From Fidelibacterota bacterium (GTDB lineage Bacteria; Fidelibacterota; UBA8477), in NCBI GenBank assembly GCA_021734045.1, contig JAIPJR010000026.1, forward strand, positions 1 to 32,660: a stretch of 32,660 bases of DNA, written 5' to 3'. Every line of letters starts with the position of its first letter. The first letter of the stretch is position 1. The position numbers and the translations under genes were made by a program. This document shows, piece by piece, positions 11,680-31,948 of the stretch. The notes beneath the pieces are model-generated. The model worked only from the letters and a program-made list of their open reading frames with translations, did not search any database and was not told where the DNA came from.

Positions 11680-14600
11680 ATGAAACAACCACTACCGAAC
11701 CAAATACCAGATTTAGACCTGGACTTTAAACACCACAAAACACTTTCGTTTCGTGCCCTGATGCAATTTCGGGTACACGATATCCTAATTGTGGCCAGTC
11801 TGTATGATGCCTTTAAACTGGAGGAAGGTGGACACATCACCGAGATGGTATTCATGGAATATCATCAGCTTAACCTGAATAATCCGCCGCATGTGATTCG
11901 CGTATCCACGGCTCGGGACGCGTTGGAATATTTGGAGCACAATCGTGTGGATCTGGTCATCACCATGGCTCGCCTGGGTGATATGGATGCGGAAGAATTT
12001 GGCCGAAAAGTACGGGAGCAGCACCCCAACCTGCCCCTGATCCTGCTGGCTGCGGACAAGCGCATTCTTGAAGCCGCACCCGACCCCGATTCACCATTTG
12101 AGTTTGTCTTTGCCTGGGTGGGTACGCCTTCCCTGCTGCCCGCAATCATCAAGGTGGTTGAGGATAAACACAATGCCGAGCGAGATATTCTGGAGGGCGG
12201 TGTTCGTTGTATCATCGTGGTGGAAGACTCACCCCAATATTATTCTGTCTTCATGTCAATGATATACCGGGAAATCATTCAGCACACCCAACACCTGATG
12301 CGCAATGAGTACACCGATGCATTACGCTTATTGCGGATGCGCTCCCGACCAAAAATCCTACTGGCAACCACCTACGAGGAGGGGCTGGCCTATTTTAATA
12401 AGTTCCAACAACAAGCACTGGCCGTTATCAGTGATGTCCGCTACCCGAAAAATGGTGTTCTGGATCCCAATGCCGGCGTGTCACTTTTGTCCCTGATTCA
12501 CAAAACCGACCGCGATTTACCGGTCGTCCTCCAATCCAAGGATCGTAAGAATCGCACCAAAGCTCAGCGGATTAACGCCTATTTCCTGGACAAGAACTCA
12601 CCGCGACTGGTGAAAGATTTACTCGAGTTCGTCGTGAAACACTGCGGATTTGGCAATCTGGTCTTCTCGAACCGGGACGGTACGCCCATTGACGAAGTGT
12701 ATGACTTAAAGGGACTGGAAAACGCCTTGCTGAAAGTTCCGGATCAAAGCGTCGAATATCACGCCCGACGGAATCATTTCAGCAATTGGCTCGCAGCTCG
12801 CGGATATTTCCAACTGGCAGATCAGATCAAACCGCTGCATCTGGAAGATTTTTCCCATGTGAATGAATTGCGGAAAATCATCACTGATTTGGTCCGTCGG
12901 GAACGCGCTACCCAATACCAGGACAAAATCCTGGATTTCGTTCCCGAAACCTATGATCCCGCCTTTCGCTTCGTCCGTTTCGGGACCGGCTCACTGGGCG
13001 GAAAAGCACGCGGACTGGCCTTTGTATCCACCTTTTTAAAACGCTTCGAGTGGCACACGAAATACCCCAATGTGGTGGTGGATATTCCCCATACATCGGT
13101 GGTTGCAACCGACATTTTTGATCAGTTCATCGAATTAAATCGTATTCAGAGCGCATTGGGGGACGCCGACAGCAATGAGGAAATCAATGCGATTTTTCGG
13201 GCAGGTCAATTTCCGGAAAGCTTTGTGGCCGATCTACGGGCATACCTGGAGCATCACCGCGTCCCCCTGGCTGTGCGTTCTTCTTCCCTCCTGGAAGATT
13301 CCCTTTTCCAGCCCTTCGCAGGTATTTACGCTACATTCATGCTGCCCAATAACACACCCCAGCTTGATGATCGATTGCAATTGGTATTGGATGCAATCAA
13401 AATGGTCTATGCATCTACCTTCCATCTGGAAGCACAACACTACATGACCGCCACTGGTAATCGTCCGGAAGATGAAAAAATGGCAGTGATTATCCAGAAT
13501 CTGGTAGGTGCTCAGTACGGAGACTATTTTTACCCCACCATTTCTGGAATCGCCCAGTCCTATAATTATTATCCCTTTAAAAACATGAAGCGTGAAAATG
13601 GGATTGCCAATGTTGCGTTAGGTTTGGGGCGTACGGTGGTTTTGGGGAATAAATCCTTGAGTTTCTGTCCCAAATACCCAAAAATTCTGCCCCAATTTTT
13701 TGACGCACGTTCCGTTTTAAAAAACAGCCAAAGCACCTTTTTTGCGTTGCCCATGAACTCTGAGCGCGATCCGCTGGCGGAAGGTGAACAGGGCAATCTT
13801 GAACTTTTGTCGATCCAACATGCAGAAAAAGATGGAACCCTGGAGCCCCTCACCAGCGTGTACGATGCAAACGATAATGCTTTCGTGGAAGCACCGGATA
13901 TGAAGGGGCCGCGCGTTATTTCATTTGCCAATATTTTGAAATGGAATGTCTTCCCACTGGCGGACATCCTTCAGAATCTCCTCCACTATGGTCGCCGTGG
14001 AATGGGTTGTGAGGTGGAGGTGGAATTTGCGGCCAACGTAGGCATGAATCAGGATGCCCCGACTGTGTTTAATATCCTTCAGATCCGACCCATGTTGACC
14101 TATGCTCAACTCACTGTGCTAGACCCGGATGAAATCAAGTCGGAAGATGTGATTTGCACGAGTGATCGCTGCCTCGGTCATGGCACGACCAATACCATCA
14201 AAGATATTATTTTGGTAAAACCCGAAACCTTTAAAGTTCAGGAAACCCATGAAATTGCATCTGAGATCGCGACACTAAACAGGTCAATGGGCGAGAATCA
14301 CCATTACCTGCTGATGGGGCCGGGACGCTGGGGTACGGCTGACCCGTTTTTAGGGATTCCAGTGAATTGGGATGAAATTTCACAGGCCAGGGCAATTGTT
14401 GAAGTGGGGTTACCCAATCTGTTTATCGAACCCTCATTTGGCAGCCACTTCTTCCAGAATCTGACCACATTGGGAATAAGTTACTTCACTATTCCCCCCG
14501 AAGCCTATGACACAGCTATTGATTGGGATTGGTTTAGTCACACCAGGGCTATAGAGGAGACAAAGTATCTGCGGCATTTTCGATTTAAAAAATCACTACC

Positions 14601-14682
14601 GATTCGGATTGATGGGCGGACTGGATTTGGTGCCATTTATAAACCCGGCCGTCAATCTCACGTTAACGATTTGATGACCTGA
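11680..14682 (+). CDS. Receiver-receiver-ATP-grasp protein with PPDK/PEP-synthase N-terminal domain (paralog 1)
   Basis: A 1000-residue cytoplasmic protein of unknown function. Domains: a degenerate receiver (about 30-165), with Met96 in place of the phosphoacceptor Asp; a second receiver (about 175-325) that keeps the acidic pair Glu182-Asp183, phosphoacceptor Asp252 in SDVRYP and Lys305; a linker with YHARRNHFSNWLAARG; then the ATP-grasp domain of PEP synthase/pyruvate phosphate dikinase, with GSLGGKARGL (437-446), AVRSSSLLEDS (531-541), EVEFA (780-784) and LQIRP (800-804). The phosphohistidine swivel domain and PEP/pyruvate barrel are absent. Instead there is a C-terminal region with GPGRWGT (880-886) and PSFGSHFFQN (918-927). 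It cannot be an ordinary PEP synthase; phosphorylation-controlled ATP use is inferred. No Shine-Dalgarno is seen. The start is supported by the similar length of the paralog at 16493. Confidence 0.9.
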   Translation: MKQPLPNQIPDLDLDFKHHKTLSFRALMQFRVHDILIVASLYDAFKLEEGGHITEMVFMEYHQLNLNNPPHVIRVSTARDALEYLEHNRVDLVITMARLGDMDAEEFGRKVREQHPNLPLILLAADKRILEAAPDPDSPFEFVFAWVGTPSLLPAIIKVVEDKHNAERDILEGGVRCIIVVEDSPQYYSVFMSMIYREIIQHTQHLMRNEYTDALRLLRMRSRPKILLATTYEEGLAYFNKFQQQALAVISDVRYPKNGVLDPNAGVSLLSLIHKTDRDLPVVLQSKDRKNRTKAQRINAYFLDKNSPRLVKDLLEFVVKHCGFGNLVFSNRDGTPIDEVYDLKGLENALLKVPDQSVEYHARRNHFSNWLAARGYFQLADQIKPLHLEDFSHVNELRKIITDLVRRERATQYQDKILDFVPETYDPAFRFVRFGTGSLGGKARGLAFVSTFLKRFEWHTKYPNVVVDIPHTSVVATDIFDQFIELNRIQSALGDADSNEEINAIFRAGQFPESFVADLRAYLEHHRVPLAVRSSSLLEDSLFQPFAGIYATFMLPNNTPQLDDRLQLVLDAIKMVYASTFHLEAQHYMTATGNRPEDEKMAVIIQNLVGAQYGDYFYPTISGIAQSYNYYPFKNMKRENGIANVALGLGRTVVLGNKSLSFCPKYPKILPQFFDARSVLKNSQSTFFALPMNSERDPLAEGEQGNLELLSIQHAEKDGTLEPLTSVYDANDNAFVEAPDMKGPRVISFANILKWNVFPLADILQNLLHYGRRGMGCEVEVEFAANVGMNQDAPTVFNILQIRPMLTYAQLTVLDPDEIKSEDVICTSDRCLGHGTTNTIKDIILVKPETFKVQETHEIASEIATLNRSMGENHHYLLMGPGRWGTADPFLGIPVNWDEISQARAIVEVGLPNLFIEPSFGSHFFQNLTTLGISYFTIPPEAYDTAIDWDWFSHTRAIEETKYLRHFRFKKSLPIRIDGRTGFGAIYKPGRQSHVNDLMT

Positions 14683-14788: not shown

Positions 14789-16492
<1,704 letters not shown>

Positions 16493-19441
16493 ATGACCAT
16501 TGATGAATCGATAACGTTAGGTCCCCATAATCAGATTTCCTTCCGAGATCTGATGCATTTGCGGGTTCACGAAATTCTTATCGTTTCAAGTCTGTATGAC
16601 GCCTTCATTCTGGAGGAAGATGGCCGCCTGACCGAGTTGATTTTTACTGAATATCAGGACATGAATTTGTCCAATGCCCCACGGGTTACACGAGTTTCCA
16701 CCGCCAAACACGCCCTGCAAAAATTGGATAGGGAAAAATATGACATGGTGATTACCATGTCCCGCCTTCCAGATATGCATCCTTTTGAATTTGGAAAAGC
16801 AGTAAAAGAAAGTCATCCTGACCTGCCGGTAATTTTGTTGGCATCTCACCAGCGAGAATACAATTACCTGATTTCCAAAAACAAAGAAAAGAACGAGCTG
16901 GATAAAATTTTCTTCTGGTCCGGGGATTCCTCTCTATTCACAGCCATCATCAAATTTGTTGAAGACCGGAAGAATGCGGAGCGGGACATTCTCCACGGGG
17001 GTGTTCGTGCCATTATTGTTGTGGAAGATTCACCCCAGTTTTACTCGGTCTTTCTGCCCATGATTTACCGGGAGACAATCAAGCATATCTATAAATTGAT
17101 GAAGCGTGAATACACAGAATCTTTGCGTTTGCTTAGAATGCGGTCCCGGCCAAAGATCTTACTGGCATCCAATTACGAGGAAGCCGCCGCTTATTTCGCA
17201 AAATATCAGAACAATATATTAGCTGTTATATCGGATGTGCGCTATCCCCGAAAAGGAACGGTGGACGAACAAGCCGGTGCAAAATTACTCAGCATGGTCA
17301 CATCCAAAGTTCCGGATCTCCCCATTGTGCTCCAGAGCAAGGAGCCCGAAAATGCCTCTGTGGCTAAGCAATTAAACGCCTATTTCCTGGATAAAAATTC
17401 TCCCGAGCTGGTAATGAATCTACGGAAATTTGTGGTGAAGCATTGTGGTTTCGGGGAATTGGTGTTCAGCTCACCGGATAAATCAGAGATCTGCCGGGTT
17501 AGTGATTTGCGCTCTTTGGAGGCTGCCCTTGCGGTTGTACCGGCACAAAGTATCGGTTATCATGCCCGTAGAAATCATTTTTCAAACTGGCTTGCGGTGC
17601 GGGGTTATTTTGAAATCGCTGACATTCTGCGCACCAAGCATGCCCGAGATTTTGAGAATCTGGAAGCCATGCGAACACTACTGCTGGACCTGGTTCGGAG
17701 TCAGCGGAAAATACAGCACCAGGGAGAAATTATTTACTTCGATCCGGAAACCTACGATCCGGAATTCAAATTCGTCCGGTTCGGGCGCGGCTCCCTGGGT
17801 GGAAAAGGGCGCGGTTTAGCCTTTATGAATACGTATATGCGCGAATTCAACTGGTATCGTGCCAATAAACAAATTATCATTGATATTCCTCACACAGCAG
17901 TCCTGGGCACCAATCTCTACGACCGTTTCCTGGAGATGAATAACATAGATTCTGCGTCCCTGATGGAAGCGGATATTGACACAATCGACAAAGTTTTTCT
18001 GGCAGGAATTTTTGAGACCGCGACGGTGGAGAACATCAAATCGTACCTCTCGTATCACACCACACCATTGGCGGTACGCTCCTCATCGCTATTGGAGGAC
18101 TCCCTGTTTCAACCCTTCGCCGGGATTTACCGCACTTACATGATTCCCAATAATTCACCCAAACCAGCCAACCGGGTTGCCGACGTGTTGAATGCCGTGA
18201 AGCGAGTATACGCTTCCACTTTTTACCCTGATGCCAGAGCTTATATGGAAGCTACGGGAAATCGGCCTGAAGATGAAAAAATGGCAGTGATTATTCAAAA
18301 TCTGGTGGGTGCTCAGCACGGAAACTATTTCTATCCGGTGGCATCAGGATTGATACAGAGTCATAATTTTTATCCCATCGGTGTGATGAAACGGGAAGAA
18401 GGTGTGGTTTCCATGGCCCTTGGATTGGGCCGGACAGTCATGGGTGGCAATGACGCCCTGCGATTTTCTCCAAAACACCCTTCGGTGCTACCCCAATTTT
18501 ATAATGCCCAATCGGTGCTGAAAAATTCCCAGAAAAGTCTTTTTGTCCTGCCGCTAACCCAGACGGACCAAGAAACCGTGGATTCAGAGTTGAAACTTTC
18601 TGTGAAGGAAGCCTGGAAAGAGGGGTTGGCCGATCTGGTGGTTAGTTATTATTCCCAGGAGGACGGCCGGTTTTATGACTATGCGGTTGATGACGGGAAG
18701 CCCATTATCACACTAAAACCGTTATTGAACGCATCCAAATGGCAGCTCACAAATGCCTTCACCCAGCTTATTGATGAATGTCGTATTGCCATGGGTGGAG
18801 ACGTGGAAATCGAGTTCGCCATGCAGGTGGAGGATCTCACCACCAAACCCAGATTGTACATTTTGCAGATTCGACCCCAACACACGGTGAAAACGACTGA
18901 AGAATTTGAATTGGATGAGTATCCACTTTCGAAAATAGCTTTTAAAAGCTCACTCGCTATGGGGAATGGCATCAATGATCGAATTCGGGACATTGTGTAT
19001 GTGAAGCATCAAAAATTTTCTCCCCAAGTGACGCACCAGATTGCCCGGGAGATTGGCCAGCTGAATCGATCATTGGATGCTGAGCACCCCTATCTGTTAA
19101 TTGGACCCGGACGGTGGGGCACCAGTGATCCGAATCTGGGAATTCCCATCGGCTGGGAGCAGATCAGCCATGCCCGGAGCATGGTAGAACTGGGTTTGGA
19201 AGATTTCGACATTGACCCCTCATTCGGGAACCATTTTTTCCAGAATGTCACAGCATTGGAAATAGGGTATTTCAAAGTTAGCGTCCATGTCCAAAAAGAT
19301 TATCTTGACTGGAAATGGCTGGACAATCTACCGTCCGCACAGGAAACGGAATTTCTGCGTTACATCCGCTTAAAAGAACCCCTGACCATCATGATTGACG
19401 GTAAAAAGGGCGTTGGATTAGCCCTGAAACCCAAAAGGTGA
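16493..19441 (+). CDS. Receiver-receiver-ATP-grasp protein with PPDK/PEP-synthase N-terminal domain (paralog 2)
   Basis: A 982-residue paralog of the protein at 11680-14682; about 61 of 101 positions are identical by hand count over the first receiver. It has the same order: a first receiver with Met89 at the phosphoacceptor position; a second receiver with Glu178-Asp179, Asp248 (SDVRYP) and Lys301; the linker YHARRNHFSNWLAVRG; ATP-grasp motifs GSLGGKGRGL (433-442), AVRSSSLLEDS (527-537) and LQIRP (791-795); and a C-terminal region with GPGRWGT (871-877) and PSFGNHFFQN (909-918). It also lacks the swivel-histidine and PEP domains. The region just before the LQIRP block differs most between the copies. 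The function is unknown; a phosphorylation-gated ATP-dependent enzyme or regulator tied to amino-acid metabolism is inferred. The gene ends inside a terminator-like palindrome (19433-19453). Confidence 0.9.
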   Translation: MTIDESITLGPHNQISFRDLMHLRVHEILIVSSLYDAFILEEDGRLTELIFTEYQDMNLSNAPRVTRVSTAKHALQKLDREKYDMVITMSRLPDMHPFEFGKAVKESHPDLPVILLASHQREYNYLISKNKEKNELDKIFFWSGDSSLFTAIIKFVEDRKNAERDILHGGVRAIIVVEDSPQFYSVFLPMIYRETIKHIYKLMKREYTESLRLLRMRSRPKILLASNYEEAAAYFAKYQNNILAVISDVRYPRKGTVDEQAGAKLLSMVTSKVPDLPIVLQSKEPENASVAKQLNAYFLDKNSPELVMNLRKFVVKHCGFGELVFSSPDKSEICRVSDLRSLEAALAVVPAQSIGYHARRNHFSNWLAVRGYFEIADILRTKHARDFENLEAMRTLLLDLVRSQRKIQHQGEIIYFDPETYDPEFKFVRFGRGSLGGKGRGLAFMNTYMREFNWYRANKQIIIDIPHTAVLGTNLYDRFLEMNNIDSASLMEADIDTIDKVFLAGIFETATVENIKSYLSYHTTPLAVRSSSLLEDSLFQPFAGIYRTYMIPNNSPKPANRVADVLNAVKRVYASTFYPDARAYMEATGNRPEDEKMAVIIQNLVGAQHGNYFYPVASGLIQSHNFYPIGVMKREEGVVSMALGLGRTVMGGNDALRFSPKHPSVLPQFYNAQSVLKNSQKSLFVLPLTQTDQETVDSELKLSVKEAWKEGLADLVVSYYSQEDGRFYDYAVDDGKPIITLKPLLNASKWQLTNAFTQLIDECRIAMGGDVEIEFAMQVEDLTTKPRLYILQIRPQHTVKTTEEFELDEYPLSKIAFKSSLAMGNGINDRIRDIVYVKHQKFSPQVTHQIAREIGQLNRSLDAEHPYLLIGPGRWGTSDPNLGIPIGWEQISHARSMVELGLEDFDIDPSFGNHFFQNVTALEIGYFKVSVHVQKDYLDWKWLDNLPSAQETEFLRYIRLKEPLTIMIDGKKGVGLALKPKR

Positions 19442-23516: not shown

Positions 23517-24830
23517 TTACAGGTACATGCCGCGAATCTCAGATGCTTTCAGCACGCGTTGAATCGCCACCACAAATGCAGCCATGCGCAAGCTAATCTT
23601 CCGCTCTTCAGATACTCTCAAGACTTCACGGATAGCACCTGACATGATTTCGGTCATCTCCTCATTTACCCGCTTTTCTGTCCAGTAGTAGCCCATACGG
23701 TTTTGAACCCATTCCAGGTAGCTGACGGTAACACCACCGGAATTACACAGAATATCGGGAATGATATGAACTCCCCGTTCATACAGCAGATGATCTGCAT
23801 TGGGTGTGATGGGGCCATTGGCACCTTCCGCGATTAATTGGGCTTTAATCGCATCGGCATTGCGCGTGGTGATTTGATTTTCCAGGGCTGCCGGCACCAG
23901 AATATCCACATTCATTTCTAAAACGGACATGGGATCATCAGGCATGGTAACACCTTCTGCAGTGTATCCCTGCAATGTCCCGTGATCTGCAACCCAGGCC
24001 ATCATTTCCGGTACATTAAGTCCTTGCTCACTGTCGGTGACATAGGCACCGGAGATATCCGCGATACCCTTGATGGTCACGCCGGCTTCATGCAGAAACA
24101 AGGCGGCATAGCTTCCCACATTACCAAATCCCTGAACGGCAGCCGTTTTTTCAGACAAATTCCAGCCCAGGTATTCGGCCATCTTCATCACACCGATGAA
24201 AACGCCCCGTGATGTGGCCTCCTTCCTTCCCAGACTACCGCCCAACTCAATGGGCTTTCCTGTAATCATGGCTGGCAGGTAATCACCCTTATTCAGTGAA
24301 AAGGTATCCATCATCCAGGCCATAATCTGGGCATTGGTATTCACATCCGGTGCAGGAATATCGCGGTCCGGACCAATAACATCGGAAAATTCCAGTACAT
24401 AGCGCCGGGAAAGGGATTCCAGTTCATGGGGAGAGAGGGATTTGGGGTCCACAATAACCCCGCCTTTTCCACCGCCCATGGGAATGTTGGCCACCGCGCA
24501 TTTAAAGGTCATCCAGAATGCAAGGGCTTTCACCTCATCCAAACTCACATTGGGATGGAAGCGAATGCCACCTTTGGCTGGTCCACGTGCGGTACTATGC
24601 TGCACCCGGATTCCGGTAAAAATGCCCACATCACCATTGTCCCGGCGAATGGGGATTTTGGAGATAGTAATTTTCTGGGGCTCTTTTATCAGGTTGATCT
24701 GATTTTCCGACAATCCCAGGATTTTCGCGGCTTCATCAAACTGTGCCACAGCATTTTGAAATGCATTCATGTTGTCAGACATGCTAACCCCTGATTTGGA
24801 GGTCGGCTGAGTCGAAGATACTGCGTTCAT
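23517..24830 (-). CDS. Glu/Leu/Phe/Val dehydrogenase family, second glutamate dehydrogenase
   Basis: A class distinct from the gdhA at 14789-16135, closer to NAD-linked hexameric glutamate dehydrogenases of archaea and Gram-positive anaerobes. Motifs are RGPAKGGIRFHPNV (substrate Lys), [23 protein letters not shown], the coenzyme fold VQGFGNVGSYAA, LIAEGANGPITP and NSGGVTVSYLEWVQN. The family often acts in glutamate catabolism. The start is uncertain: ATG 24830 (437 residues) has GAAGGG 4 nt upstream, while ATG 24782 (421 residues, MSDNMNAFQNAV) has AGGGG 5 nt upstream and matches the usual family N-terminus. The gene stands alone before the kinase-regulator operon, with no clear terminator. 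Substrate preference for Glu over Leu or Phe is inferred from sequence feel, not proven. Confidence 0.9.
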   Translation of the reverse strand: MNAVSSTQPTSKSGVSMSDNMNAFQNAVAQFDEAAKILGLSENQINLIKEPQKITISKIPIRRDNGDVGIFTGIRVQHSTARGPAKGGIRFHPNVSLDEVKALAFWMTFKCAVANIPMGGGKGGVIVDPKSLSPHELESLSRRYVLEFSDVIGPDRDIPAPDVNTNAQIMAWMMDTFSLNKGDYLPAMITGKPIELGGSLGRKEATSRGVFIGVMKMAEYLGWNLSEKTAAVQGFGNVGSYAALFLHEAGVTIKGIADISGAYVTDSEQGLNVPEMMAWVADHGTLQGYTAEGVTMPDDPMSVLEMNVDILVPAALENQITTRNADAIKAQLIAEGANGPITPNADHLLYERGVHIIPDILCNSGGVTVSYLEWVQNRMGYYWTEKRVNEEMTEIMSGAIREVLRVSEERKISLRMAAFVVAIQRVLKASEIRGMYL

Positions 24831-24984
24831 TTCACCCTTCAACTTTCCTTAAAAGTCTGGTTAGAGCGTTTATGTTGTAATAATGATTTTGCATAACCGG
24901 TAATCTGCAAAAACTAATCCACGGCCGGACATTCACAACCGCTTGTTGAACTGTGCCAAACCTTGAATACAGAGGCCACTCAGG

Positions 24985-27292: not shown

Positions 27293-30200
27293 ATGGCTGA
27301 GCAACCCACCATATTCCCTGATCTGGAAATTGTCGATCCGGAAAAGTGGGAGCTCCATTTTCGTCGCCAACTTGAGCAAATCAACGAATTCAATACCCGA
27401 GCACCCGATGCCCTTACAAAGGAAATTTTAGAACTCGGGCATTCTATCCTTGATAAAGGTACCGCCCATCAACAGGAAGTATTGTTGGATCTGGGACGGC
27501 ATCGCGGCTTCATTGATACCCTTGAGAATCTGGGACTCACACCAGAATGGTTTGACATCGAATGGGCGCTGATTCGTAGGTTGAATTTTACACCTGGTCG
27601 TCTTATTCGTTTGCGCCATCAGCAATTTCCTCAAAAGGTGCTGCTAAGGTATCAGTCGAATTTCCAATGGCAGGAGTTGAGTTGGATCGATGTGGTGGAT
27701 ATCTCCCGCCGTTTCGCGGCTGGCATCCTACGACTTACACAGAATAAACCCGGCCCCATCGCCATTATTTCTGAAAACAGAATCGAAGTGGCGCTGGCGG
27801 ACATCGCCTGCCTCTCGTACGGCATTCTCAATGTCCCCATCCAGCCATCTCTCCCCCCACAACAACTGGCCTACATTCTTGAGCATGCGGGAATTGAGAT
27901 CGCTGTCATTTCCAATGCTGGTGTTTATGAACGACTCCAGGCAGCACTTCCCTTTCAATCCACCTTAAAACAAATCGTTTCACTGGATGAATTGAGTCAT
28001 GGCGGTGGTCTGCCTTTGCACCGCTGGTCAGGCTTGCAAAAATCCTTATCCCAGGCTGAACATGCTCAGTTGGAAGAGCGGCAGGCAGCGATTGCGCTGG
28101 ACGATATCGCCTCGCTCATGTACACCAGCGGAACCACTGGTCACCCCAAAGCTATTGAATTCACCTATGGCAATATTATTTCCAAGCGTTTTGCAAGAGC
28201 GTTGGTGTTCAAAGTGGACGAGAAGGATACCTTCCTTTCCTACCTACCGCTTTACCATACATTTGGTCGATTTTTAGAGCTGTGGGGTTCTCTGTTTTGG
28301 GGTGCGACCTATAATTTTGCCAGCGGTACCACCAGTCAGGCATTGCTTTCAGACATGCAGATTATCCGGCCTACCGTACTCATTAGCATTCCGAAACGGT
28401 GGCAGGAAATTTACGAACGGGTAACCAGCCAGTATGACCCACTCCACGCCAAGCGACTGGACATTCGCAACAAACTGTACGAATTAGTGGGGGGGCGCCT
28501 GCGCGCCGGACTTTCGGCGGCCGGGTATCTGGATCCGGAAATTTTTCAGTTTTTCCAGAGTTTTGACATACAGCTCCTGAGTGGTTACGGCATGACCGAA
28601 GCAACGGGTGGTATTACCATGACACCACCGAATGACTATGTCCCGAATTCGGTCGGCGTTCCCCTGCCCGGCATCGATGTCAAGCTTGGTGATGATGGGG
28701 AATTATTCATCAAGGGTCCCTACGTTTCACCGGGCTATTACAAACCGGAATTTGAGGATGAGCGACCGGATGGCTGGTTCGGTACGGGTGATATTTTTCG
28801 TGAGCTGCCGCGCGGTCATCTGGAAATCATTGACCGCAAAAAAGAGATCTACAAGAATGCCAAGGGGCAGACCATCGCGCCGCAAAAAATCGAGAACCTC
28901 TTCAGGGATTTTGACGCGGTGAAACAAATCTATCTGGTAGGTGATCACCGTCCTTTTAACACAGCCCTTATCTATGCCAATGAGGATGCGCCCCAAGTGC
29001 GCCAGCATTTGGATGATACGGAGCAGTTGAATGCTTACTTTGCCTCGCTGGTTAATTCGGTCAACTCCTTTCTGGCACCATATGAAAGAATCGTGAATTT
29101 CACACTGATAAACCGAGCCTTTTCCGCCAATCTGGGTGAACTCACCCCCAAAGGCACCTATAAACGCCATGCCATCCACGAAAATTTCAAACGGGACATC
29201 GAGCGGATGTACGAAAAACCCTTCCAATCGATTTTTGTAGGTGATTTGGAAGTGCAGATTCCCATGTGGTTTTTGTTGGAACGGGGCTGGATGCGGGAAG
29301 ATCTGGAGGGCACACCAAACGGTTTGCGACACAAAGCCGAAGAACTCGAGTTGTCAACAACCCGCTTGAGTCCGAATCAAATCCAGTTAGGCGACCTGAA
29401 ATACCATTACGATAATCAGGTTCTGGATTTGGATTTGTTTATCCGGCAGCCGGCTTATTGGATTGGGAACGATTCGCTACTCCAGTTTTTGGGGTATGAA
29501 GCACTGCCGCACCGGAATTTTAATCCCATTCCACAATATTATCCCGGTGATTGGACGCCTATCCATTTTTCGGAAGCCGATGCGTCTGAGATGGCGGATG
29601 AGGTTCTGGCCGCGTTCAATGAAAATAAATTTGATTTTTTCAGCCTGCACAATGCGCTGTGCTTATTGCTCGCTGAGGGGAATGGACACGCCACGGTCGC
29701 CTTCCAGTATCTTGTGCGGGCAGCTCGCCAAGCCGGCTCCAACCACCACAGCACCATTTATTACGCATTCGTCAGACTTATTAAATCCCCTCAATCAGGA
29801 TTACGCCAGGCAGCATTTCAGCAGGCATTGGCTATGTGTAACAGCCAAGAATTGAGCCGACTTCTGGATTATGCTCTCCGGGATGAAATCGTGTTAAAAT
29901 TGGACCCACAGGGATTTGAAGAATGGCCCAATATCAATACACACAAGCTGAAAGCCCTATTCTCCCGGGCTGAACAGGAACGTCAAAAATACCACCCTGC
30001 ACAAAACCTGATACTGTCGCCTTTTGATGAAAATTTACTCACCTTGCTAACGGCGATTGGCATTGTCTATCCCCAATACCACACTGGAATTCGCAGTGAA
30101 CTGGTTCGATGGGAAATTGCAGTGAAAGGCACCAGTGATTTGACCCGAGTGCTGAGAGATCACCATACCGCATTAGTGGAAGCCTTCCGGCATCGGCTGG

Positions 30201-31948
30201 GAATACCGGCGAATTTAGCCACTTCGCCCGATTCGGAACAAACCTACAGCTGGTCGGATGTGGTGGAATTTGACCGAGAAGTACCTCGGGATCACCGCCG
30301 ACGCATTCTGGAAGCCATGAGTAATACGCCGCTGTTAAATGAAGCGCTGTTCATGTTTTACCACGGCCGGTCAGTACGGCTTCAGGACATTCCTCCGGAG
30401 GGTATTTCCATTGATCTGCTGGGGTCTGCGCACCGAAAAGCCGTCTACCGTGTCGTTATTCAGACCCGGGAATTGGACACCTACTATTTTGCCATTAATG
30501 TGAATATCGATCTGCCGCTGGAGATTCTGGAATCGGAAGTGCGCTGGCTTCAGGCCAGTTCCAGCTATCAACAGGAAGATAAAATCGTTGAACAGTTCGG
30601 CGGGTATTATCCGGAACAGGAGCTCTGGACCGAAGAATATATCCCTGGTAAAACCGTGGAACAGCACCTGTTTCAACTGAAAAACGGTCGTCAGGACGAG
30701 AACAGCCCGCCGGCCACATTCCTTTGGCCACATTTTGTGTGGACCGGGATTGGTGCCTATTTCGCTTTCTGGCGTCAGACTCAGTACGAAGTATTCGTCG
30801 CCGATCCCACACCGGCAAATATCATTATTCCGCCTCATGATTATTACCGTGGTGGGCGTATCATCTCTATTTCATCGCGGATTCGCAATCAGACCCCGTA
30901 CCAGACACTGAGATTGGTGCTGGACCGGTACATTCATGATACTGCCAGGCTTTTCCCGGATATCAATACTTACCTCACACCCACGGTAGTCTACTCGCCG
31001 ATCTACGAAGCATTGGAACCAGAGGAGGGGCGTCGTTTTCTGGAGAATGCCATTAACGATGCCGAATGCCCGGATGACTTACGGACCGAAATTCAGGAAT
31101 TTCTGGATGACATTGAGACACAAGGATTTTATCCCAAGCCGGTTTTTTTCGCCATCTTGCGTTACCAGCGCTGGTTGAAGCTGAATCCGGATGCCACACT
31201 GCGGGCGAAGGGTCGCTATATTCAGGAACTTCTGAAGGACTATAATATCGGCGATGCATCGAAGCTCTACCCGGATGCACGGTTGCGTCTGTTTCTGGAT
31301 ACAGTATTCGCTGATGCCAGTCTGGTGGTACGTGCACACCTGCGCAGTTGGATGCATCAGCAGCGAGAGATGACCCTGTTGGACACGCGGCTCCAATGGG
31401 AAATTCGCGAGTTGTTGACCGATCATGAGTTATCCGAAGAGGAGGCCTATTTTCTGAAACGCTTACCACTACCCCACCTGAGTGGTGCCGACGCAATCGA
31501 AATCATCGCGAATCCCCAAACGGGCCTACAGGATGTTGAAATTATGGTAACCCGCCGGGATCAATCGGGAGAAACATTTCACATTCGCAAACCGATCAAT
31601 CCCAAAGAAATCCTGCGCCTGCACCGTCTGTTTGCCGAGGTGCATCTGGATGTGCAATTCAAGCCGGAGCACGAATACCTGCTGGCATTGAATGAGAATG
31701 GCCATGTGATTGGCGGACTGTTTTATGAGCCAGTGGATACCAGCAATGTATTCATGGACAAAATCGTCATTGCGGCGGCTTATTCGGGTCGGGGCATCAG
31801 CCGGGCGATCATGGAGGAATTTTTCAACCGGATGCGGGGTCGCGGCTTCGATGTTGTCACCACCGGATTCTACCAGCCCGGGTATTTTTATAAACAGGGA
31901 TTCCGGATTGAGAAACATTATGAAGGTTTAGTGAAACAATTGGACTAA
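27293..31948 (+). CDS. Multidomain AMP-dependent ligase/kinase-like/GNAT protein
   Basis: A 1551-residue protein I cannot name. Residues about 100-630 are an acyl-adenylate-forming domain of the long-chain acyl-CoA ligase type: YTSGTTGHPK (277-286), GYGMTEA (431-437), GTGD (497-500), DRKKEIYKNAKGQ, and the catalytic Lys620 in TPKGTYKRH. About 640-1000 is a soluble, mostly helical region with no family I recognise. Around 1060-1200 lies a stretch resembling a protein-kinase/aminoglycoside-phosphotransferase fold, with D-P-T-P-A-N (1171-1176) like a catalytic loop but IISIS (1190-1194) where D-F-G/D would be expected, so probably degenerate. The C-terminus (about 1440-1551) is a GNAT acyltransferase, with the acyl-CoA loop YSGRGIS (1497-1503) and a GFYQPGYFYKQGF ending. 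Activation of an acid and transfer to an amine is inferred. No strong ribosome-binding site; a good terminator follows. Confidence 0.88.
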   Translation: MAEQPTIFPDLEIVDPEKWELHFRRQLEQINEFNTRAPDALTKEILELGHSILDKGTAHQQEVLLDLGRHRGFIDTLENLGLTPEWFDIEWALIRRLNFTPGRLIRLRHQQFPQKVLLRYQSNFQWQELSWIDVVDISRRFAAGILRLTQNKPGPIAIISENRIEVALADIACLSYGILNVPIQPSLPPQQLAYILEHAGIEIAVISNAGVYERLQAALPFQSTLKQIVSLDELSHGGGLPLHRWSGLQKSLSQAEHAQLEERQAAIALDDIASLMYTSGTTGHPKAIEFTYGNIISKRFARALVFKVDEKDTFLSYLPLYHTFGRFLELWGSLFWGATYNFASGTTSQALLSDMQIIRPTVLISIPKRWQEIYERVTSQYDPLHAKRLDIRNKLYELVGGRLRAGLSAAGYLDPEIFQFFQSFDIQLLSGYGMTEATGGITMTPPNDYVPNSVGVPLPGIDVKLGDDGELFIKGPYVSPGYYKPEFEDERPDGWFGTGDIFRELPRGHLEIIDRKKEIYKNAKGQTIAPQKIENLFRDFDAVKQIYLVGDHRPFNTALIYANEDAPQVRQHLDDTEQLNAYFASLVNSVNSFLAPYERIVNFTLINRAFSANLGELTPKGTYKRHAIHENFKRDIERMYEKPFQSIFVGDLEVQIPMWFLLERGWMREDLEGTPNGLRHKAEELELSTTRLSPNQIQLGDLKYHYDNQVLDLDLFIRQPAYWIGNDSLLQFLGYEALPHRNFNPIPQYYPGDWTPIHFSEADASEMADEVLAAFNENKFDFFSLHNALCLLLAEGNGHATVAFQYLVRAARQAGSNHHSTIYYAFVRLIKSPQSGLRQAAFQQALAMCNSQELSRLLDYALRDEIVLKLDPQGFEEWPNINTHKLKALFSRAEQERQKYHPAQNLILSPFDENLLTLLTAIGIVYPQYHTGIRSELVRWEIAVKGTSDLTRVLRDHHTALVEAFRHRLGIPANLATSPDSEQTYSWSDVVEFDREVPRDHRRRILEAMSNTPLLNEALFMFYHGRSVRLQDIPPEGISIDLLGSAHRKAVYRVVIQTRELDTYYFAINVNIDLPLEILESEVRWLQASSSYQQEDKIVEQFGGYYPEQELWTEEYIPGKTVEQHLFQLKNGRQDENSPPATFLWPHFVWTGIGAYFAFWRQTQYEVFVADPTPANIIIPPHDYYRGGRIISISSRIRNQTPYQTLRLVLDRYIHDTARLFPDINTYLTPTVVYSPIYEALEPEEGRRFLENAINDAECPDDLRTEIQEFLDDIETQGFYPKPVFFAILRYQRWLKLNPDATLRAKGRYIQELLKDYNIGDASKLYPDARLRLFLDTVFADASLVVRAHLRSWMHQQREMTLLDTRLQWEIRELLTDHELSEEEAYFLKRLPLPHLSGADAIEIIANPQTGLQDVEIMVTRRDQSGETFHIRKPINPKEILRLHRLFAEVHLDVQFKPEHEYLLALNENGHVIGGLFYEPVDTSNVFMDKIVIAAAYSGRGISRAIMEEFFNRMRGRGFDVVTTGFYQPGYFYKQGFRIEKHYEGLVKQLD

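Follow-up and report, generated by a model that had tools for sequence, protein, structure and literature searches.

The window analysed here, a stretch of 32,660 nucleotides from a 2.5-Mb draft genome of Fidelibacterota, contains an open reading frame of 1551 residues starting with ATG. A preliminary description of this DNA had placed a frame of this length at 27293-31948, and both coordinates and length proved exact. A full-length relative in Ca. Marinimicrobia CG1_02_48_14 (NCBI phylum Fidelibacterota) is 74% identical, with a dN of 0.19 and a saturated dS; the low dN argues that the frame is a real gene under constraint. Hydrophobicity over 19-residue stretches peaks at 1.4, too low for a membrane helix. 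Its features are as follows:

27293-31948, + strand: whole open reading frame, ATG start, 1551 residues
27293-27604, + strand: N-terminal region (residues 1-104), poorly conserved, mean pairwise identity 22%
27605-29224, + strand: AMP-forming acyl ligase (residues 105-644), from PF00501 and PF23562, solved structures and a tree
28118-28150, + strand: A3 (P-loop-like) motif MYTSGTTGHPK (residues 276-286), read in the sequence and alignment
29150-29152, + strand: predicted catalytic Lys620 of the A10 motif, invariant in 46/46 members
29225-29572, + strand: conserved stretch 'IPxWxxxE...GDxxY...WxGN' (residues 645-760), also matched in a 2182-residue protein of another phylum
29600-30172, + strand: fast-evolving helical region (residues 770-960), with an armadillo/HEAT-like match at about residues 783-851
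30305-30937, + strand: putative degenerate protein-kinase-like region (residues 1005-1215), assigned indirectly through a homologue (L094) in genome G331
30938-31444, + strand: conserved linker 'LRYQRWLKLNPDA...' (residues 1216-1384), mostly helical according to a low-confidence model only
31535-31945, + strand: GNAT acetyltransferase domain (residues 1415-1551), from PF00583 and a profile comparison with GCN5 structures
31757-31759, + strand: D1489, a possible general base: an acid (D/E) in 46/46 members, on the strand that precedes the CoA loop of the GNAT
31793-31795, + strand: G1501 of the GNAT CoA loop SGRGIS, with G kept in 20/46 members

Pfam recognizes AMP-binding at residues 110-483 (E=1.2e-65), AMP-binding_C_3 at 524-642 (E=4e-12) and, at 1455-1524, the GNAT domain PF00583 (E=4e-6, 27.5 bits against a curated cut-off of 20.7). 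It reports no domain between ligase and GNAT, and neither a carrier (PP-binding) nor a reductase domain anywhere in the chain. The ligase and GNAT ends proposed from the bare sequence are thus recovered, as is the lack of a carrier. As to the roughly 800 residues between them, described as unassigned, they have indeed no Pfam domain, but profile comparisons point to helices of armadillo/HEAT type and, indirectly, to a region like a degenerate kinase. The protein appears to be a real new combination of known parts, namely an acyl ligase, a helical-repeat/kinase-like middle and a GNAT. In the part of the literature that our search covered, no description of such a fusion was found.

The ligase has the PF00501 core of the ANL superfamily with motifs A3, A5, A7, A8 and the A10 lysine. 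In an alignment of 46 family members, from which all residue counts given here derive, H322, E436, D500, R515, E616, T618 and K620 are each invariant (46/46). K620 lies in 'ELTPKGTYKR', where the ExTxK context is invariant as well, in agreement with the earlier proposal of a domain with all core motifs and Lys620 at the catalytic lysine position. Judged from these residues, the ligase looks like the constant activity of the family. The best partial NCBIfam match, well under its cut-off, is a FadD11-type fatty acid-CoA ligase. With such AMP-binding_C_3 long-chain acyl-CoA synthetases the protein shares ligase core, catalytic motifs and C-terminal subdomain family; the free-standing members, three of which are found in the same genome, measure about 590-600 residues and have neither middle nor GNAT. 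In a tree, the ligase domains form one clade beside these three synthetases (support 97, in a small sample) and apart from FadD-type ligases. The nearest solved structures are A-domains of carboxylic acid reductases (5msc, E=1e-30), enzymes with carrier and reductase domains that the family protein does not possess. CoA is assumed to be the co-substrate of the ligase; carboxylic acid reductase A-domains, which resemble it in sequence, have a carrier in that role.

Residues 645-760 of the middle carry the conserved 'GDxxY...WxGN' ('WLGN') stretch, which has a relative inside a 2182-residue protein from the phylum of G331. That protein (L145:3-6548, minus strand) combines the 'WLGN' stretch with a weak ABC1 kinase-like match, a glycosyltransferase group 1 domain and a P-loop segment. 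Further along, a profile of residues ~783-851 matches a designed armadillo protein (E=5.5e-11) and coatomer beta (E=0.0016). HEAT_2 is weakly matched in one relative, and the window protein has no HEAT/ARM match in Pfam. Mean identity drops to 18% in this helical region, lower than anywhere else in the protein, which would suit a scaffold. A match of the middle to 7on7 in a PDB profile search was rejected as a repeat-protein artefact arising from weak single stretches.

Moderate evidence suggests that residues 1005-1215 resemble a kinase with decayed catalytic residues. Proteins of 1378-1399 residues from the phylum of G331 contain a segment matched by the family profile (E about 1e-10 to 1e-12). 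Taken alone, the segment from one of them, L094 of G331, retrieves Snf1 kinases at E=1.5e-4, its other matches being almost all kinases, and its 'NNDVNPYN...KINDIG' falls in register with 'HRDLKPEN...KIADFG'. The same segment of L143, a protein of this phylum 42% identical to L094, gives no kinase match in PDB when used alone, and for this reason we grade the evidence no higher. In the window protein, 'ADPTPANIIIPPHDYYRGGRIISIS' occupies the expected place of the catalytic loop and DFG. Direct similarity of this segment to Snf1-like kinases is not significant, PDB profile searches with the middle region gave no significant kinase match, and hhalign against APH kinases of related genomes likewise fell short of significance, though with the motifs in matching register. 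The family does not show the full set of protein kinase hallmarks (catalytic Asp, downstream Asn, DFG Asp): most members lack the catalytic Asp, the position being D in 13/46 and N, P or other residues elsewhere, and DFG is gone. D1183 of this region is invariant in the 46 aligned members. The family would add a degenerate kinase-like domain within a metabolic enzyme. An AlphaFold2 model of residues 645-1551 built from two sequences reached a pLDDT of 36 and was not used.

Relatives of the middle also occur in giant frames of 9720 residues (L146, G404:C318), where they appear twice, and of 6568 residues (G403:C21). These frames belong to the phylum of G331, which we take to be like Omnitrophota in its giant ORFs.

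The C-terminal GNAT, already suggested in the preliminary description, is confirmed: compared with solved structures, the family profile finds GCN5 acetyltransferases, the best being TGCN5 (E=1.6e-8), with which it shares the fold and the GF, GG and acidic-strand features. The domain is conserved overall (38% mean identity), and R1432, G1475, R1513, G1536, F1537 and the acid at 1489 (D/E) are invariant (46/46). The position aligned with the catalytic Glu of GCN5 is H, Y, F or Q in the family, the invariant acid standing two residues on. Unlike in GCN5-type GNATs, the CoA-loop glycine varies. It is found in 20 of 46 members, including the window protein, its nearest relatives and the copies from the four outside phyla introduced below, and is replaced by H, D, N, A or other residues in the remaining 26, a distribution that requires at least 3-4 changes on the tree. 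The window loop, SGRGIS, keeps the central G of the R/Q-x-x-G-x-G/A consensus and lacks both the R/Q and the last G/A. GNAT proteins can function without the canonical loop glycine. In the simplest reading of the alignment, the presence of a GNAT would be needed in all members and canonical CoA binding would not. That this glycine varies while the ligase residues are fixed suggests an accessory or regulatory domain rather than an obligatory second catalytic step. An essential catalytic GNAT would also be compatible with the invariant D/E1489, R1432, R1513 and GF motif.

A comparison of domain architecture across genomes, proposed at the outset as a check, revealed the same fused protein in five bacterial phyla, the full-length relatives measuring about 1500-1630 residues. 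Within Fidelibacterota/Ca. Marinimicrobia, 89 of 245 sampled genomes have a match at E<=1e-3; two of these are short GNAT ORFs only, so that about 87 genomes have the protein. Frames measure about 1420-1630 residues where contigs are long enough, and shorter matches are mostly contig-end fragments or broken copies. One ligase-GNAT gene (G113:C18:27228-29793, minus strand) has internal stops, from decay or assembly error. A wider profile-searched sample added four full-length copies from other, small phyla (G250, G309, G342 and G348). Carriers amount to 5/5 genomes in the phylum of G309 (some copies known only as contig-end pieces), 2/7 in that of G342, 2/4 in that of G250 and 1/2 in that of G348. 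Recurrence of the whole ligase-middle-GNAT arrangement over these phyla means that the architecture is conserved and not an accident of one assembly. The family resides in phyla known mostly through metagenomes.

In Fidelibacterota, most copies of the gene stand alone on their strand, and no conserved metabolic neighbour or acceptor gene was found near it. The genes conserved around it there bear no relation to it and comprise divergent HD/GAF and transporter genes, SCO1, UbiA, COX15, DUF420 and citrate synthase. In the phylum of G309, there is an apparent operon in which the ligase-GNAT gene follows a gene for a ~600-residue NAD-binding-like protein and precedes that for a FadD-like long-chain fatty-acid-CoA ligase. 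The FadD-like ligase is downstream in 5/5 genomes of this phylum (about 58-65% identical between genomes) and points to fatty acids, the sole hint provided by gene context. The NAD-binding-like protein, upstream in four of these genomes (about 72-76% identical), was considered as a partner and rejected: in Fidelibacterota it occupies a housekeeping-like locus, with neighbours that resemble trpS, scpA/B and a pseudouridine synthase (sequences judged by eye), and does not track the ligase-GNAT gene. Members of this NAD-binding-like family measure ~570-600 residues (L160:8306-10012 and L091:6216-8003, both on the plus strand), and that of L091 has no Pfam or NCBIfam match.

The interpretation that we tentatively favour, at somewhat less than even confidence, is that of a soluble long-chain-type acyl-CoA synthetase with a non-catalytic scaffold as its middle and an accessory GNAT. 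The ligase would activate a carboxylic acid as its adenylate and then join it to CoA in thioester linkage; the substrate is probably a fatty acid. As a scaffold, the middle with its armadillo/HEAT-like and degenerate kinase-like parts would have no catalytic role; it may bind a partner or hold the C-terminal domain in position. As to the GNAT, it may bind acetyl- or acyl-CoA and regulate or assist the ligase; the concrete candidate mechanism is that it modifies lysines of the ligase in the manner of Pat, in cis or in trans.

Acid activation and acyl transfer are usually carried out by separate enzymes. The preliminary description had imagined acid activation and transfer to an amine within one chain, which is possible but not the best-supported reading. 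In such a relay, the ligase would make an acyl-AMP or acyl-CoA and the GNAT would transfer the acyl group to an amine; the HEAT/kinase-like middle would recruit the acceptor, a lipid, a metabolite or a protein. We consider this unlikely: 26/46 members have lost the loop glycine, in contrast to the fixed ligase residues, and no acceptor gene is conserved nearby. The invariant acid at 1489, together with the loop glycine retained by the window protein (SGRGIS), nevertheless keeps the idea alive; invariant arginines in the GNAT and the joint maintenance of ligase and GNAT ends in full-length copies also speak for it.

We may also hypothesize a fused switch of the Pat/Acs type, in which the GNAT would acetylate its own Lys620 or the lysines of sister acyl-CoA synthetases and thereby lower acid activation at high acetyl-CoA; Pat is established to modify the catalytic lysine of AMP-forming acyl-CoA synthetases. 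Pat types I and II likewise join an acyl-CoA-ligase homologue and a GNAT in one chain (PMC11254643). The invariant ExTxK context of K620 is consistent with such a switch, which could also do without the GNAT loop in some lineages. We nonetheless hold it to be improbable, since the ligase-like part of Pat is NDP-forming (PMC11254643) and belongs to a different family from the present ligase. That part is moreover inactive (PMC11254643), whereas the ligase of our family is AMP-forming with intact catalytic residues and is separated from the GNAT by the HEAT/kinase-like middle. The family thus lies outside the Pat class, as a different fusion of related parts.

Membership in an NRPS-like or carboxylic acid reductase megasynthase with a carrier in trans is very improbable despite the closest solved A-domains being those of carboxylic acid reductases: the middle is not the standard carrier or reductase module that had been named as the finding to contradict the proposal, Pfam detects no such domain in the rest of the protein and no carrier or reductase-megasynthase protein among the neighbours scanned, and the ligase groups with free-standing acyl-CoA synthetases in the tree.

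A bolder formulation, conceivable though on balance doubtful, would see across the five phyla one protein not described before, a functional acyl-activating enzyme joined to a degenerate kinase-like/armadillo recruitment module and a GNAT, which acetylates its own catalytic lysine or relays acyl groups to proteins or lipids. With a live-looking ligase and a GNAT in one chain, it would become testable in this family whether acyl activation and acetyl-CoA-dependent control are coupled.

Elsewhere in the window, two Glu/Leu/Phe/Val-type dehydrogenase (GDH) genes lie within 10 kb (14789-16156 and 23517-24842). In the corresponding neighbourhood of related genomes, a conserved ~606-residue protein without Pfam or NCBIfam match is encoded beside GDH (L044:14076-15893, minus strand; orthologues in L040-L046). 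Two proteins of ~1000 residues (11680-14682 and 16493-19441), with one GDH gene between them, each combine a response-regulator-like segment with PPDK_N, the ATP-binding domain of PEP synthase type, and have no other PEP synthase domain according to Pfam. Related genomes largely share the order PPDK_N protein, GDH, ligase-GNAT gene, citrate synthase.
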